Both the position numbers and the translations under genes were made by a program. From NCBI GenBank assembly GCA_029006155.1, contig JAQXGF010000050.1, positions 1-64,000 on the forward strand: 64,000 nucleotides of DNA, given 5' to 3'. Positions 17-7,197 of the stretch are shown piece by piece. How positions within the stretch are numbered: the first letter of the stretch is position 1; each line of letters opens with the position of its first letter. The notes under the pieces are model-generated. The model was not told the origin of the DNA. It did not search any database and saw only the letters and a program-made list of their open reading frames with translations. This stretch comes from Lachnospiraceae bacterium. Its GTDB lineage: Bacteria; Bacillota; Clostridia; Lachnospirales; Lachnospiraceae.

Positions 17-832
17 ATGAGTGTACAATTGCTGGACAAGACCAGGAAAATAAATCAGCTCCTTCATAACAACAACACGAGCAAGGTTGTATTCAATGAT
101 ATCTGCGATGTGCTGACAGGGATTCTGAATTCCAATATTCTGGTAATCAGCCGCAAAGGTAAGGTGCTGGGCGTCGGATTATGTGACGGCGTGGAAGAAA
201 TCCGGGAATTGATTGTAGACCGTGTAGGCGGATATATTGATCCGTTGCTGAATGAGCGTCTTCTCGGGGTTCTTTCGACAAAGGAGAACGTCAATCTGGA
301 GACCCTTGGTTTTGAAGGAGACAATGTACGGAAGTATCAGGCGATCATCAATCCGATTGATATTGCAGGAGAGCGGCTCGGTACTGTATTTATGTACAAG
401 AGCGGCAGCCAGTATGAGATTGATGACATTATCTTAAGTGAGTATGGCACGACAGTTGTCGGTCTGGAGATGATGCGTTCCGTAAATGAGGAGAATGCAG
501 AGGAGAACCGCAAGATTCAGATCGTAAAGTCCGCGATCAGCACCCTGTCCTTCTCAGAGATGGAAGCGATCATTCATATTTTTGATGAGCTGAACGGTAC
601 AGAGGGGATTCTCGTGGCGAGCAAAATCGCAGATAGGGTCGGAATCACACGTTCTGTCATCGTCAATGCACTGCGGAAGTTTGAGAGTGCAGGTGTTATC
701 GAGTCCCGGTCTTCCGGTATGAAAGGAACCTACATCAAGGTGCTCAATGATGTCGTATTCGATGAGCTTGAGGAGATTCGGAAGAGTAAGAATATCAGCA
801 ATTATGCCAGAACCGGAAAAAAGGAAGACTAG
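17..832 (+). CDS. codY: CodY, GTP- and branched-chain-amino-acid-sensing repressor
   Basis: Global nutritional regulator of low-GC Gram-positive bacteria; it binds DNA when GTP and isoleucine/leucine/valine are plentiful. The 271-residue product has the family layout: an N-terminal GAF sensor (about residues 1-155, starting MSVQLLDKTRKINQLL) and a C-terminal winged helix (about 185-255). The recognition helix region reads ASKIADRVGITRSVIVNALR, which is the highly conserved CodY motif. A GAGGAGG ribosome site lies 6 bp before the ATG. The length is slightly above the roughly 260 residues of Bacillus CodY because of a short lysine-rich tail. The gene ends in its own terminator, so it is not co-transcribed with the downstream kinases. 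The family assignment is near certain; ligand specificity is inferred from the family. Confidence 0.97.
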   Translation: MSVQLLDKTRKINQLLHNNNTSKVVFNDICDVLTGILNSNILVISRKGKVLGVGLCDGVEEIRELIVDRVGGYIDPLLNERLLGVLSTKENVNLETLGFEGDNVRKYQAIINPIDIAGERLGTVFMYKSGSQYEIDDIILSEYGTTVVGLEMMRSVNEENAEENRKIQIVKSAISTLSFSEMEAIIHIFDELNGTEGILVASKIADRVGITRSVIVNALRKFESAGVIESRSSGMKGTYIKVLNDVVFDELEEIRKSKNISNYARTGKKED

Positions 833-873
833 ACAAAGGATAGAAAGATACAGAAACATACAGAAACGTACAG

Positions 874-920
874 CCTTCTGGATTCATGTGGGAATGTGAA
901 TCCAGGAGGTTGATTTTTTA
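874..920 (+). terminator. Intrinsic terminator of codY
   Basis: A 13-bp stem (874-886 with 897-909, one G-U pair) closes a 10-nt loop and is followed by a T-rich tail at 911-920. It lies 41 bp after the codY stop and separates codY from the kinase operon. I see no gene between 921 and 1020. Confidence 0.85.
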
Positions 921-1020
921 TTCCTGCAGGCAACGAGCCAGACAGCCATGCCAACCCACGGCTCATCAAAAACACAAATTTTCAGAAGAAACTGGTAAAA
1001 TGGATAAAAGAAAATAGAAT

Positions 1021-1049
1021 TTGACATTGTATGCATTTACATCTAATAT
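1021..1049 (+). promoter_or_regulatory. Sigma-A-type promoter of the kinase operon
   Basis: TTGACA at 1021-1026 and TAATAT at 1044-1049 are separated by exactly 17 bp. Transcription would start near 1056, giving a leader of about 210 nt before the first kinase. That leader contains the structured repeat at 1098-1228. Confidence 0.8.
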
Positions 1050-1097
1050 AAATGATGACTATGACTGGTGCAGTGAATCAAAACGTCCGAAGAGAAA

Positions 1098-1228
1098 GGA
1101 GTGGTGCGAGCCACTCCTGATAAGCTGTGAAGCAGCATTCGGTTATGACATATCATAAGGAGGGACCCGCTTGCGGGAGGATTCCTTGTGATCCTACAAG
1201 TAGCGAAGCGGATTGCGAATATCCGCTT
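1098..1228 (+). repeat. Structured intergenic repeat, copy A, in the kinase leader
   Basis: A chain of hairpins starts with a 7-bp stem GGAGTGG/CCACTCC (1098-1104 with 1111-1117). It continues through CTGATAAGCTG and GAAGCAGC and ends with AAGCGGAT/ATCCGCTT closing a TGCGAAT loop (last base 1228). Most of the same sequence recurs at 55867-55948. Copy A carries about 45 extra bases in the middle, themselves including a CCCGCTTGCGGG-type hairpin. An open frame runs through this element into the kinase gene, but the repeat content argues that it is untranslated leader. It could be a REP/MITE-like DNA repeat or a leader RNA; the sequence alone does not decide. Confidence 0.7.
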
Positions 1229-1264
1229 GACCCAGAAACGGAAAGAGAAGAGGCTAAGAAACAT

Positions 1265-3313
1265 ATGGAAAATTTGAACATTCAGCTGCCATGGCCTGGA
1301 TGGCGGGCAGTGAAGTATCTTGGAAACGGTCAGTTCGGGCAGGTATATGAGATTGAGCGCACGCAGGCCGGGATCACGGAGCATGCGGCGGTGAAGATCG
1401 TCACACGGCCAAAAGATGAGAGCGAGCTGGAAGCACGGTATGAAAACGGGTTTGATGAGGAAAGCGTTGCGGCGTCCTACGCGGAGGAACTGCAGCAGTA
1501 TGCCAGCGAGTACCGTCTGATGCTGGAGATGAAAGGGCAGTCAAATATCATCAGTTGCGATGATTTTACCCTGATCGAGAATCCGAATGGGATCGGTGGA
1601 AAGATCTATATCCGGATGGAGCTGCTGACACCGTTGAAAAAGATGCAAAAAGAGATATTTACAAAGGAAGAGACCGTGATCCGGCTCGGTATGGACATCT
1701 GTCGGGCGCTGATGCTCTGCGAGGAGAAACATATTATCCACCGGGATATCAAGCCGGAGAATATCATGGTGTCACAATTTGGTGATTTCAAGCTGTGCGA
1801 TTTTGGCGTTTCCCGGTTTCTGGACCATACGACGAATGCATCTCAGTCGGGTACTCCGGCATACTGGGCACCGGAAATTGCGCATATGGAAGAATACGGA
1901 AAGTCGGTAGATCTATATTCACTCGGCATCATGATGTATTGGATGCTGAACAACCGCAAGATGCCGTTTATCGATGTGGATGAGGTGATGACTGCACAGA
2001 AAATGAATGAAGCACTGCGGCGGCGCTACAGCGGCGAGGATTTGCCGATGCCGGCGAAGGGGAGCCATCGGCTGAAGCAGATCGTACTGAAGGCCTGTGC
2101 ATATCGTCCATCAGACCGGTATACATCTGCAAATGAGATGTATGCAGATCTGGAGGCATTGCAGTCTGGTACGGGCAGAAATGAAAGCCAGTTCCATGGA
2201 AGTACTTCTGGTGGAACGGTCGGTGGAGAGCGTACTACTTTTAATGGAACGATCGGCGGGAAAAGCACCTGCGGCAGCACACAGGGGAGCTGGAGCGGCC
2301 GGACAGAGGGAAATGCATGGAACGATGATACCCAGCATACGATCGGCAAGCCAAAGCAGGCACATAAGCAAATGTGGGAAACCGACGCCGATATGGGAAC
2401 GGTTGAAGAGACCGTTGGTGTCAGACAGGCTTATGCAAAGCAGGAACAAAAGCAGAAGCAGACGATGGCTCAGGTGAAGGCAGCGGTGTCACAGGCAGAA
2501 GAAAAAAAGAAAAATGGATTGCGGTGGAAATATGGGACTGCGGATCTGTGGCTGAGTATCGCCGATACCGCGATCGTGCTGGTCGTCCATTATCTGCTGT
2601 TGTTCTGTTATCAGAAGAGTTATTTCCATAGTCAATATGGATATTCCGGGAGCGCGGATCTGGTAAATGGTACCTTGATTGCTTCCTGGTTTCTGCCGAT
2701 TCTGGCGGCAATTGCTGTAGTTCTGTTTCGCAGAGAAATGCTCCGAAATGGAATCGTGGTGAAGATGATCGCGAGCATTGCGATCGCATCTTATCTGAGC
2801 GTATACACAGAAATTGGAAGCCTGATTTTAAAGAAGTGGTCATTCTACTTTAACCATGCGATTTGGATTGATGTAGTAGCTTTTGCAAGCAGTTACGGTG
2901 CAATGCTTTTCCTCGCCAGCGGTTTGGTAGGAGATGACACTGAAACGACGAGTGAAGGAGTTCTTTGGGGGATGATGCCACTCTACTATTATTACACGTT
3001 TTATGTTATTGGCAAAAATCTGGATAATTTTGAGACAGGAGGAATTCCGATCTGGATGGGACTGATGCTCGTACCGGTTGTGATGCTGGTTGCAATTTAT
3101 ATCATGAAGAGCAGTGCTCTGGCTAAGATTGCAGGGGTAGTGTTGGGACTTGTTTTGGGCAGTATGATTCTCGTGGTTTTATTCGAAATATATCCGAATA
3201 GCAGCGACTGGTCATGGTATGTATTTGTACTGATTTCTGTTTCTATATTGGGTCCGCCTGCGCTTGGCTGGAAGATGGCAGGCAGCTGGGAAAAGGCGAT
3301 AGAAAAGTTATAG
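1265..3313 (+). CDS. Membrane-anchored Ser/Thr protein kinase
   Basis: Hanks-type kinase domain in residues 1-300: glycine loop GNGQFG, ATP lysine K44 in AAVKIV, catalytic HRDIKPEN with D161, DFG at 179-181, and a WAPE motif. A Gly/Ser/Thr-rich linker (about 305-385) and a short Gln/Lys-rich segment follow. About eight hydrophobic helices then end the 682-residue protein, so the kinase faces the cytoplasm from a polytopic membrane anchor. PASTA repeats are absent, unlike PrkC/Stk1. I chose ATG 1265 because its N-terminus matches the paralogue at 3347 and because the in-frame upstream codons lie in a structured repeat; an AGAAGAGG ribosome site precedes it. The gene is 33 bp from the next kinase, so the two form an operon. 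Substrates and the signal sensed by the membrane domain are unknown. Confidence 0.9.
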   Translation: MENLNIQLPWPGWRAVKYLGNGQFGQVYEIERTQAGITEHAAVKIVTRPKDESELEARYENGFDEESVAASYAEELQQYASEYRLMLEMKGQSNIISCDDFTLIENPNGIGGKIYIRMELLTPLKKMQKEIFTKEETVIRLGMDICRALMLCEEKHIIHRDIKPENIMVSQFGDFKLCDFGVSRFLDHTTNASQSGTPAYWAPEIAHMEEYGKSVDLYSLGIMMYWMLNNRKMPFIDVDEVMTAQKMNEALRRRYSGEDLPMPAKGSHRLKQIVLKACAYRPSDRYTSANEMYADLEALQSGTGRNESQFHGSTSGGTVGGERTTFNGTIGGKSTCGSTQGSWSGRTEGNAWNDDTQHTIGKPKQAHKQMWETDADMGTVEETVGVRQAYAKQEQKQKQTMAQVKAAVSQAEEKKKNGLRWKYGTADLWLSIADTAIVLVVHYLLLFCYQKSYFHSQYGYSGSADLVNGTLIASWFLPILAAIAVVLFRREMLRNGIVVKMIASIAIASYLSVYTEIGSLILKKWSFYFNHAIWIDVVAFASSYGAMLFLASGLVGDDTETTSEGVLWGMMPLYYYYTFYVIGKNLDNFETGGIPIWMGLMLVPVVMLVAIYIMKSSALAKIAGVVLGLVLGSMILVVLFEIYPNSSDWSWYVFVLISVSILGPPALGWKMAGSWEKAIEKL

Positions 3314-3346
3314 ATATAAAAGGAAAGAAAAGAGGGAAAAATAAAT

Positions 3347-4882
3347 ATGGAAGATTTCAATATTCAGCTGCCATGGCCTGGATGGCGGGCAGTAAAGTAT
3401 CTTGGAAGCGGTCAGTTCGGGAGTGTCTATGAGGTCGAGCGCGCGCAGCTTGGCATCACGGAGCGGGCTGCGGTGAAGGTGATTGCGCGGCCGAAGGATG
3501 AAGATGAGGTGGAGCAGCTGTATGAGAGCGGCTTTGATAAAGAAAGCGTTTCAGCGTATTATGAAGAGAGTCTGAATCGCTATATTCGTGAATACCGTAT
3601 GATGATGGAGCTGAAAGGCCAGTCCAACATCGTCAGCTGTGATGATTTTGCACTGATTCCGAATCCGGATGGGCTAGGCTGGAAAATTTATATCCGGATG
3701 GAGCTTCTGACTTCCTTAAAAAAGGTACCGAAGGAGATGCTGGAAAAGGATTCCGGCGTCATTCGGCTGGGCATGGATATTTGCAGAGCCCTGATGCTGT
3801 GCGAGCAGAAGCATATCATCCACCGGGATATCAAGCCGGAAAATGTGATGGTATCTTCGTTTGGAAATTTCAAGCTGTGTGATTTCGGGATTTCCAGAGT
3901 GCTGGACCATACGACCAATGCGACGAAGGCGGGGACTCCGCTCTACTGGGCACCGGAAGTGGTACGCATGGAAAAGTACGGACAGACGGTTGATATTTAT
4001 TCGCTTGGAATTATGATGTATGAGATGCTGAACAACCGCAGAGTGCCATTTATCCGCGCGGATGAACCGATTACAGCGAAGAAAATCGATGAGGCAATGG
4101 ACCGCAGACAAAGAGGAGAGCAGGTGCCGCCGCCGGCAAACGGTCACCCGGAGCTGAAACGGATCGTATTGAAGGCGTGTGCATACCGTCCGCAGGATCG
4201 ATATGCCTCTGCAGAAGAGATGTATGCGGATCTGGAGACACTGGCAAATGGCGGGGAGAATATCAGCTCGCAGACCTTTCGCTCGCAGTGTGGAATGGCA
4301 GAAAGGAATAAGCCAGAAGTTCAGAATGCCTGGAAGACGATGGGAAGCCAGGGCAGTTCGTATGACCGGGGCTGGAAGACGCAGGGCAGTCTGGATGACC
4401 GGGCAGACTGGGGAAGCCAGATTAGCGGTGGTCGGAATGAAACGCAGGATCGCCTTATCTTCGATGGCGGGTATCTCTCAGAGGATATGATCACAGAGCC
4501 TGACACGCAGGAAGCCGTGCTGGAGGATGTCTATGTCCTGCTTGTGGGTCGGAAGATCAACAATATAGAGGAGCTGCGGTATAAATTTTTCGGACAGATC
4601 ATACCAGACAACCGGAAGCTGCTGCTCGTTGCGAAAGATTACAGCAGGGATGCATACGAGCAGCTTGGCAGATTCGTGCGTCAGGGCTTTGTCCGGATGG
4701 TGGCGGTATGGGCGCCGGAAGAAAAAGGAACCTTAGAGGAGATAGCGTCCTTGACCGGTACCAGAATCATCGGTGCGGAACCGATCAGCTATGTGACACT
4801 TGATGAGCTGGGACATGCGGAGCGTGTCCGTGTATGGGAAGATGGGATGGAGCTTACTAAAAAATCTTCAAAAAAACGATAA
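3347..4882 (+). CDS. Ser/Thr kinase fused to a GroEL apical-like domain
   Basis: Residues 1-300 are a complete Hanks kinase: K44, HRDIKPEN with D161, DFG at 179-181 and WAPE. It is clearly paralogous to the kinase just upstream. After a Ser/Gly/Arg linker (301-368), residues 369-506 align with residues 190-330 of the GroEL encoded at 5572-7197. The matches include FDGGYLS with FDRGYIS, EAVLED with EAVLDD, KINNIEEL with [17 protein letters not shown] with RKLLIIAED, and LDELGHAERVRV with [12 protein letters not shown]. My hand alignment finds 43 identities over about 125 positions, with gaps of only four and three residues plus one insertion. This span equals the apical domain, without equatorial or intermediate domains. 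No membrane segment is visible, so the product should be cytosolic. The gene lies 77 bp before the groESL promoter with no terminator between. A chaperone-linked role is inference; the domain homology is directly visible. Confidence 0.9.
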   Translation: MEDFNIQLPWPGWRAVKYLGSGQFGSVYEVERAQLGITERAAVKVIARPKDEDEVEQLYESGFDKESVSAYYEESLNRYIREYRMMMELKGQSNIVSCDDFALIPNPDGLGWKIYIRMELLTSLKKVPKEMLEKDSGVIRLGMDICRALMLCEQKHIIHRDIKPENVMVSSFGNFKLCDFGISRVLDHTTNATKAGTPLYWAPEVVRMEKYGQTVDIYSLGIMMYEMLNNRRVPFIRADEPITAKKIDEAMDRRQRGEQVPPPANGHPELKRIVLKACAYRPQDRYASAEEMYADLETLANGGENISSQTFRSQCGMAERNKPEVQNAWKTMGSQGSSYDRGWKTQGSLDDRADWGSQISGGRNETQDRLIFDGGYLSEDMITEPDTQEAVLEDVYVLLVGRKINNIEELRYKFFGQIIPDNRKLLLVAKDYSRDAYEQLGRFVRQGFVRMVAVWAPEEKGTLEEIASLTGTRIIGAEPISYVTLDELGHAERVRVWEDGMELTKKSSKKR

Positions 4883-4958
4883 ATGAGTAAAACGGAGAAA
4901 AACGGAGAAAATCAGAGAATATCAAAAGAATACATATAAAAACAGGAAACTGATGAAT

Positions 4959-4987
4959 TTGCATTATTCCGGTAATTTCATTAATAT
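4959..4987 (+). promoter_or_regulatory. groESL promoter
   Basis: TTGCAT at 4959-4964 and TAATAT at 4982-4987 are 17 bp apart, placing the transcript start near 4994, immediately before the CIRCE operator. The transcript would carry an untranslated leader of about 150 nt with further possible hairpins, for example AGCCGAA pairing with TTCGGTT around 5042-5080. Confidence 0.8.
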
Positions 4988-4998
4988 AGCATTGTTGA

Positions 4999-5025
4999 TT
5001 AGCACTCAAGCTTGACGAGTGCTAG
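4999..5025 (+). promoter_or_regulatory. CIRCE operator (HrcA binding site)
   Basis: TTAGCACTC and GAGTGCTAG are inverted repeats separated by 9 bp. This matches the canonical CIRCE element TTAGCACTC-N9-GAGTGCTAA at all but the final base. It lies just downstream of the -10 box, the normal position for repression of groESL by HrcA. hrcA itself is not in this window. The upstream kinase genes lie before CIRCE, so they should escape this repression. Confidence 0.95.
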
Positions 5026-5148
5026 CAAATAAAAGCGAATTTAGCCGAATCACCGCAATGGCCGTTCGGTTATAAGCGGGCAGTATGTGGACGACAGGTT
5101 CACCTGCCACAATGAATCTGGATGAAACCATCTAAGGAGGAATTAAAA

Positions 5149-5433
5149 ATGAAGTTAGTACCGTTAGGCGACAGAGTTGTATTAAAGCAGTTTGAAGCAG
5201 AAGAGACGACCAAGTCCGGCATCATCCTGACCAGCAAGACGCAGGAAAAGCCGCAGGAGGCAGAGGTCATCGCAGTAGGACCGGGCGGACTGGTAGACGG
5301 CAAAGAAGTGACCATGCAGGTAAAGGTCGGCGATAAGGTAATCTACTCCAAGTATTCAGGAAACGAAGTAAAGCTTGGTGAGGAAGAGTACATCATCGTA
5401 AAGCAGGGCGACATTCTCGCAGTGGTAGAGTAA
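5149..5433 (+). CDS. groES: Co-chaperonin GroES (Hsp10)
   Basis: The 94-residue product has the full GroES fold sequence: MKLVPLGDRVVLKQ at the N-terminus, the mobile loop around residues 16-35 with TTKSGIILTS, the roof loop region, and the conserved YSKYSGNEVKLGEEEYIIV near the end. It forms the heptameric lid of the GroEL folding chamber in the cytosol. ATG 5149 is preceded by AAGGAGG at 5134-5140; an in-frame ATG nine codons upstream lacks a good ribosome site and would extend past the conserved start. The gene is repressed through CIRCE. The 138-bp gap to groEL is long for this operon and holds two hairpins (see 5450-5543). Confidence 0.98.
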   Translation: MKLVPLGDRVVLKQFEAEETTKSGIILTSKTQEKPQEAEVIAVGPGGLVDGKEVTMQVKVGDKVIYSKYSGNEVKLGEEEYIIVKQGDILAVVE

Positions 5434-5449
5434 GGAAAATGGCGCGGGC

Positions 5450-7197
<1,748 letters not shown>

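Follow-up and report, generated by a model that had tools for sequence, protein, structure and literature searches.

A predicted Ser/Thr protein kinase of a Lachnospiraceae bacterium carries a GroEL apical domain as its C-terminal module. Its gene, here called kin2, lies in a window of 64,000 nucleotides, the first 64 kb of contig C50 (73,335 bases) in a draft genome of 3.3 Mb (150 contigs, 89.7% complete). The open frame of kin2 (3347-4882, plus strand) encodes 511 amino acids and is part of a left-to-right order, all on the plus strand, of a codY-like gene, kin1, kin2, groES and groEL. We think that there is a probability of roughly 45% that the apical domain is a cytosolic client-binding module that recruits substrates to the kinase or switches it.

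The kin2 product is probably a soluble, active Ser/Thr kinase, judging from its sequence. Residues 15-290 (3389-4216, plus strand) match the Pfam kinase family PF00069 (E = 4e-41) and contain Lys44 and the HRDIKPEN, DFG and APE motifs; K44, HRDIKPEN and DFG were invariant across five aligned kinase sequences, as in Hanks-type Ser/Thr kinases. There was no transmembrane segment by Kyte-Doolittle analysis (19-residue windows, none above 0.79). A linker follows (residues 291-368; 4217-4450, plus strand), inside which no family had its best stretch, barring short overlaps of kinase matches. The kinase domain is common to kin2 and the PASTA kinases (PknB/Stk1/PrkC), but the best NCBIfam kinase hit of kin2, NF033483, scored 144.6 bits, below the 450-bit cut-off, and Pfam found no PASTA domain.

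The C-terminal part of kin2, residues 369-506 (4451-4864, plus strand), is a homologue of the GroEL apical domain. BLASTP against the full-length GroEL encoded in the window (5566-7197, plus strand; PF00118, 4e-82; aligned part 6148-6549) gave 50 identities over 135 positions, with 8 gap positions (E = 1e-20), in keeping with an earlier count of 43 identities over about 125. The whole kin2 protein matched the NCBIfam GroEL models NF009487 (4.6e-21) and TIGR02348 (2.3e-17), and its best phmmer match in the PDB was 1srv_A, the Thermus thermophilus apical domain (6.7e-18); Pfam Cpn60_TCP1 was not reported for kin2 at E values up to 1. We rejected a chance match, because BLASTP, phmmer and NCBIfam were all significant. 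The GroEL models cover only kin2 residues 365-508 (model positions 186-336), and because the equatorial and intermediate domains are missing, kin2 is not a chaperonin.

The predicted structure of the module has the apical fold, in a model that was built with 41 GroEL sequences and is not independent of the homology. A single-sequence AlphaFold model was uninformative (pLDDT 42). The first-pass annotation had proposed a Ser/Thr kinase with a C-terminal GroEL apical domain at residues 369-506, and had named a profile search and a predicted fold as the tests that could overturn the proposal; with a significant match to NF009487 and an apical fold, if one from a model informed by GroEL sequences, the proposal and its boundaries stand. 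On this model, DSSP placed helices at residues 408-418 (4568-4600, plus strand) and 434-445 (4646-4681, plus strand), the equivalents of helices H and I, which we take to be the two sides of the client groove in GroEL. In sequence family, predicted fold and boundaries the module is close to the isolated apical fragments known as minichaperones (PDB 1srv, 1kid, 1jon); it differs from the GroEL domain in sitting behind a kinase, with no ring domains.

The kinase belongs to a subfamily with ties to T7SS genes. A tree built by a quick method from 50 kinase sequences (8 named and the 42 best-scoring others) placed kin2 in a clade of seven together with kin1, a paralogue on contig C23 of the same genome and the kinases of loci L087, L088, L064 and L065 (SH-aLRT 98). 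The last four loci all had WXG-type and PP2C hits, and three of the four had an FtsK-type ATPase hit. Kinases named TscD, TsdD and TseD, with the PPM phosphatase TscF or TseF, were assigned to T7SS subtypes in 2024 (PMC11217815, available text), and by that description the relatives of kin2 are alike in their kinase, PP2C, FtsK-type ATPase and WXG100 context. By phylogenetic place in this tree of 50 chosen sequences, kin2 falls with kinases from loci of the T7SS-linked (TsxD) type; unlike TsxD-type kinases, it has no transmembrane C-terminus, and tblastn found no FtsK, WXG or PP2C hit in the 64-kb window. Among 71 kinase loci from genome_contigs (made from 80 of 236 confirmed kinase places), the fetched stretch held a PP2C hit in 52, a long-WXG hit in 5 and an FtsK hit in 5. 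By these counts, most loci have PP2C as a neighbour, whereas T7SS-type genes accompany few of them, mainly those near the kin1/kin2 clade.

By its predicted domains, the subfamily is modular, with the kinase in front and an exchangeable protein- or ligand-binding module behind. We compared 81 C-termini from 100 kinase loci (19 were dropped, 17 not extracted and 2 too short; a few of the 81 belong to a neighbouring kinase in the locus). Among the 25 of 56 families listed were NPCBM (10), TPR_14 (9) and PASTA (6), and also LRR, RCC1 and SH3; a further family scan covered 57 of the 81 C-termini, with 25 of 35 families listed. In the subfamily, the commonest Pfam-named modules are of non-chaperone types, and nine further loci of the genus, read by eye, had no chaperone module.

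Two related kinases carry other chaperone parts. One, in a different species of the genus (G032:C5, loci L332/L353), is a 952-aa frame running from a kinase through an Hsp70-like region to GrpE (L353 3181-6036, minus strand, in a T7SS-type cluster). It matched HSP70 at 1.1e-6 (best stretch 365-429 of the 599-position Pfam model) and GrpE at 3.5e-15, up to the last position of the model; its PDB matches were DnaK (1.7e-8) and GrpE (9.0e-6). Around it lie a PP2C gene, WXG-type and FtsK genes, and another two kinases from the subfamily. The second, from another genus, is a 662-aa frame (L039, G361:C24, 1492-3477, plus strand, with a PP2C gene upstream) that joins a kinase to two DnaJ_C stretches (9.4e-22), followed by hydrophobic stretches as seen by eye. 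A J-domain-like gene, also recognized by eye (L354 4774-5424), precedes it by about 2.7 kb.

The genome of the window encodes a separate Hsp70-GrpE protein. This 653-aa protein on contig C61 (L351, G000:C61, 6407-8365, minus strand; GrpE 3.9e-15, HSP70 1.7e-12) was 28% identical to the G032 protein over 665 alignment positions (E = 4e-46). On one side it has PP2C, WXG100 and FHA-FtsK genes and on the other a 465-aa gene that matches no Pfam family, along with two more kinases; the contig ends in a kinase fragment that was 61% identical to kin2 over residues 209-307. Kinase and Hsp70-GrpE parts that are fused in one species and encoded by neighbouring genes in another are a hint that they work together. 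Both fusions were single cases among the matches listed. The DnaJ_C kinase was the only one among the matches listed from 397 genomes of the family (next best 2.8e-10, in a 396-aa frame). A search for Hsp70-GrpE proteins in 299 genomes, with G032 outside the set, gave the protein on C61 first (1.3e-28), and the other matches listed had frames of GrpE- or DnaK-like length, except one in G226 (G226:C45:19294-19611), a GrpE-like match whose frame, at 601 aa, exceeds those of the other listed GrpE matches. The Hsp70-GrpE and DnaJ_C kinases are on other branches of the tree than kin2, and the pattern consists of three kinases.

The fusion of a kinase to a GroEL apical domain is known from one genome. 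Apical-domain matches occurred in 45 of the 47 genomes of the genus (that of the window included), at 61 places; those other than kin2 lay in frames of 395-571 aa, and in the 30 of these 60 that we opened the domain was at its GroEL position. The domain was matched in 384 of 397 genomes sampled from the family and 369 of 391 from the class, samples that overlap, include the genome of the window and cover part of the family or class. Among the matches listed, beyond which a weaker second fusion may lie, none but kin2 was better than 7.6e-20 (family) or 3.1e-20 (class), with frames of 361-572 aa. An apical-domain HMM found none in the frames of 29 kinase loci of the family with their flanks, nor in the 71 genome_contigs and 18 viral-contig kinase loci with theirs. 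Apical peptide patterns picked out 54 stretches in genome_contigs and 4 in viral_contigs, none of them confirmed as a further fusion.

Searches of mobile elements gave no second copy of kin2. Whole-protein tblastn against plasmids returned 1200 records, all of them with less than 80% of the query covered, and blastn found no match to window positions 900-5000 in plasmids or to the kin2 gene in phages. With the apical domain, tblastn against phages returned 17 records; in 10 of them the matched stretch is annotated with a GroEL-type name, and the remaining 7 are unannotated. Five short unannotated 'phage' records (2-9 kb; OR848861, OR848302, OR847602, OR847265 and PQ520251) hold an ordinary-looking host groEL and are possibly host DNA. 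A second GroEL-length match, with 33-36% identity to the query, was present in 13 of the 46 other genomes of the genus (a third in two), and the genome of the window has one groEL besides kin2.

The module keeps the core of the apical domain and alters its groove. We compared it with 79 GroELs (34 other sequences from the genus, 5 of them second copies; the one from the same genome; 16 from the family; 27 from other families of the class; and that of E. coli). It was 31.8-44.2% identical to them, whereas the lowest identity between two GroELs in the set was 56.6%. At the 74 columns that are conserved in at least 95% of the GroELs, kin2 keeps 33 residues. Retention was higher at hydrophobic columns (19 of 31) than at charged ones (5 of 21; Fisher p = 0.011), indicating that the hydrophobic core was retained. 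R197, E255, R268, D283 and R285 (E. coli numbering) are changed or deleted, which, on this alignment, fits life outside the ring, and there are two loop deletions. For the groove we used a MAFFT alignment, E. coli numbering with Met as 1, and what we take to be the substrate-contact positions of GroEL. Y199 and S201 are retained; F204 is Met, as in 78 of the 79 GroELs; and the substitutions are L237F, L259Y, Y203D, V263G and V264R. The first-pass annotation had listed the same residues at 199, 203, 237, 259, 263 and 264, without positions 201 and 204. It had Arg at 234, where MAFFT aligned Tyr; one residue is inserted nearby, so either Tyr or Arg is possible. The groove positions that are aromatic or hydrophobic are thus Y199, M204, Y234 (gap-dependent), F237 and Y259, against D203, G263 and R264. 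An alignment in which the fold is kept and groove residues are changed supports the earlier description of a groove that is present but altered.

A client-binding role would make use of this altered groove. We infer peptide binding by the module, its coupling to kinase activity and the identity of its client along the following lines: exposed hydrophobic peptide segments would bind between helices H and I, coming from unfolded proteins or from one particular protein, possibly the mobile loop of GroES, and binding would either present the captured protein to the kinase as a substrate or gather or unmask the kinase. This reading is supported by the homology and fold, the kept core, the aromatic and hydrophobic groove positions, the modular family, the Hsp70-GrpE and DnaJ_C modules on related kinases, and the separate Hsp70-GrpE gene on C61. 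It is weakened by the occurrence in a single draft genome, 89.7% complete; by Asp, Gly and Arg at 203, 263 and 264; by a pattern of three kinases spread across branches, in a family with mostly non-chaperone modules and none of the chaperone type in nine further loci; and by a fold model that is not independent of homology.

The apical domain could instead be a docking or scaffold domain for a specific partner, no longer binding unfolded chains, as may hold for PIKfyve/Fab1, where the TCP1 domain of Fab1 would make the contact to Vac14. We regard this as possible but doubtful. The breaks in the groove at 203, 263 and 264 and the two loop deletions would fit it, as would fast divergence (in the apical tree the terminal branch of kin2 is 2.14 long, that of E. 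coli GroEL 0.45), but five groove positions are still aromatic or hydrophobic and two relatives of kin2 carry client-binding chaperone parts. PIKfyve/Fab1 is a lipid kinase that carries a lone chaperonin apical domain, most similar to that of CCT3 (PMC2846930, available text), and the Fab1 complex is scaffolded by Vac14 (PMC6439278, available text). It is eukaryotic and has a FYVE finger (PMC6439278), a C-terminal lipid kinase domain and a group II, CCT3-like apical domain, whereas in kin2 a group I apical domain follows a protein kinase domain, and Pfam reported Pkinase and neither a FYVE nor a PIP5K family. The earlier statement that no kinase of this architecture had been described therefore holds for bacterial protein kinases as far as the open-access papers searched go (none of those listed dealt with a GroEL apical domain on a bacterial kinase) and fails for kinases at large, with PIKfyve/Fab1 as the precedent (PMC2846930). 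We regard kin2 as a new form within a modular kinase family, with PIKfyve/Fab1 as a eukaryotic counterpart in architecture.

The kin1-kin2 pair is found at a position where 20 related loci gave no kinase hit. The gene upstream of kin1 (17-832, plus strand), which we take to be codY, was 91-97% identical at 19 of 20 loci of the genus and 80% at the remaining one. In 18 of the 20 loci fetched, codY and groES share a strand, with codY 169-1322 bases ahead, and none of the 20 had a kinase hit. Given these loci, the simplest explanation is that the pair was inserted in this lineage. Loci L078 and L083 (G019 and G015) differ from the other 18, with codY 6.3-6.4 kb from groES and on the opposite strand. 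A terminator-like stem-loop 3' of codY (871-912, plus strand) and a promoter-like site 5' of kin1 (TTGACA-17-TAATAT; 1021-1049, plus strand) are consensus matches only, from searches that gave little above chance (7 terminator-like sites versus 3.8 expected in shuffles, and 9 promoter-like sites versus 5.6). The tandem paralogue kin1 (1265-3313, plus strand; the longest listed frame starts at 1127) ends 33 bases before kin2, and the two kinase domains are 68-71% identical.

The chaperonin genes downstream probably have their own heat-shock control. Between kin2 and what is presumably groES (5122-5433, plus strand, from the open frame list) is a CIRCE-like operator (4999-5025, plus strand) with one mismatch to what we take to be the CIRCE consensus (0.02 expected by chance). 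Because this operator separates kin2 from groES and would serve groESL, the position of groESL behind kin1-kin2 does not imply that they are co-regulated. A 523-aa open frame antisense to groEL (5356-6927, minus strand) is probably a by-product of groEL codon use.

The position of kin2 directly 5' of groESL also suggests that its module might bind the GroES mobile loop, or GroEL, and that the kinase might phosphorylate GroEL or GroES and so tune the product of the neighbouring operon. A parallel makes this plausible: in another Gram-positive bacterium, six threonines of GroEL are phosphorylated by a Ser/Thr kinase, which strengthens GroES binding (PMC5460178, available text). Even so, we consider it unlikely for kin2. 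The adjacency is seen in this species only (none of 20 relatives) and may be chance, and no GroEL apical hit was present within the 20-kb regions that surround the Hsp70-GrpE and DnaJ_C kinases. V263 and V264, presumably client and GroES contacts in GroEL, are Gly and Arg in kin2.

Most likely, kin2 acquired the module on its own branch, once it had split from kin1. A TEGN-W-D-T linker, seen by eye, is common to kin1 and the paralogues on C23 and C61, and in kin1 and the C61 kinase it is followed by a hydrophobic stretch that kin2 does not have. Six hydrophobic segments (19-residue windows, >1.6) occupy the C-terminal part of kin1, where kin2 has the apical domain, and residues 301-682 of kin1 matched no NCBIfam family at E values up to 0.01. 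From these sequences, the apical domain probably replaced a hydrophobic, probably membrane-anchored C-terminus of near relatives. The kinase tree separates kin1 from kin2 by a path of 0.41, whereas the apical tree gives kin2 a terminal branch of 2.14; this suggests either that the module changed fast once captured or that its donor was unusual.

The adjacent groEL is not a supported donor. The module is 38.8% identical to it, 38.8-40.3% to the main copies of the genus with that one included (31 copies), and 38.0-44.2% to 27 GroELs from other families of the class; since identity is no higher locally, adjacency does not show that the module originated there. The trees, one of them built by a quick method, cannot place the long apical branch of kin2. 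Grouping kin2 with 20 GroELs of the family was not rejected (AU test, p = 0.40); a value of p = 0.023 for 8 main-copy GroELs is unusable because that set omits sequences of the genus and family that lie inside the group; and in the AU-test tree the kin2 branch meets that of E. coli, flagged as a long-branch join.

It is improbable that the apical fragment was attached by recombination as a functionless decoration. The fusion does come from one species only, but an intact frame and a kept core at 31.8-44.2% identity indicate that the module was held through long or fast divergence, which would be unlikely without selection. We rejected an assembly chimera of a kinase and a groEL read, conceivable in a draft of 150 contigs, because the genome has its intact groEL 0.7 kb downstream (85-95% identical to 20 groELs of the genus), the module is 38.8% identical to that gene and at most 44.2% to any of the 79 GroELs, and the kin2 frame runs five residues past the domain to a stop of its own.

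Client binding by the kin2 module may be one case of a wider use of chaperone parts. Tentatively, and with the odds against it, we propose that a T7SS-rooted kinase family uses GroEL apical, Hsp70/GrpE and DnaJ C-terminal parts as exchangeable sensors or substrate grips, providing a cytosolic readout of unfolded or export-competent proteins. GTPase-centred conflict systems include chaperone parts (HSP70/GrpE/DnaJ) in some neighbourhoods and kinase/PP2C pairs in other neighbourhoods of one class; the word GroEL does not occur in the main text available for that work (PMC7159879). If the client-binding reading of kin2 is true, a cytosolic kinase that holds clients through a chaperonin domain would tie phosphorylation directly to protein folding. 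Bacteria are known to signal protein quality mostly by way of transcription factors and envelope histidine kinases, and we know of no bacterial precedent for a kinase-based cytosolic readout of unfolded or export-competent proteins. The module would be a natural minichaperone outside the ring, and it would let one study how the apical groove acts when GroES, ATP and a cavity are absent, and whether that groove can switch an attached enzyme; together with kin2, the Hsp70-GrpE and DnaJ kinases make the idea of chaperone modules on kinases testable as a class.
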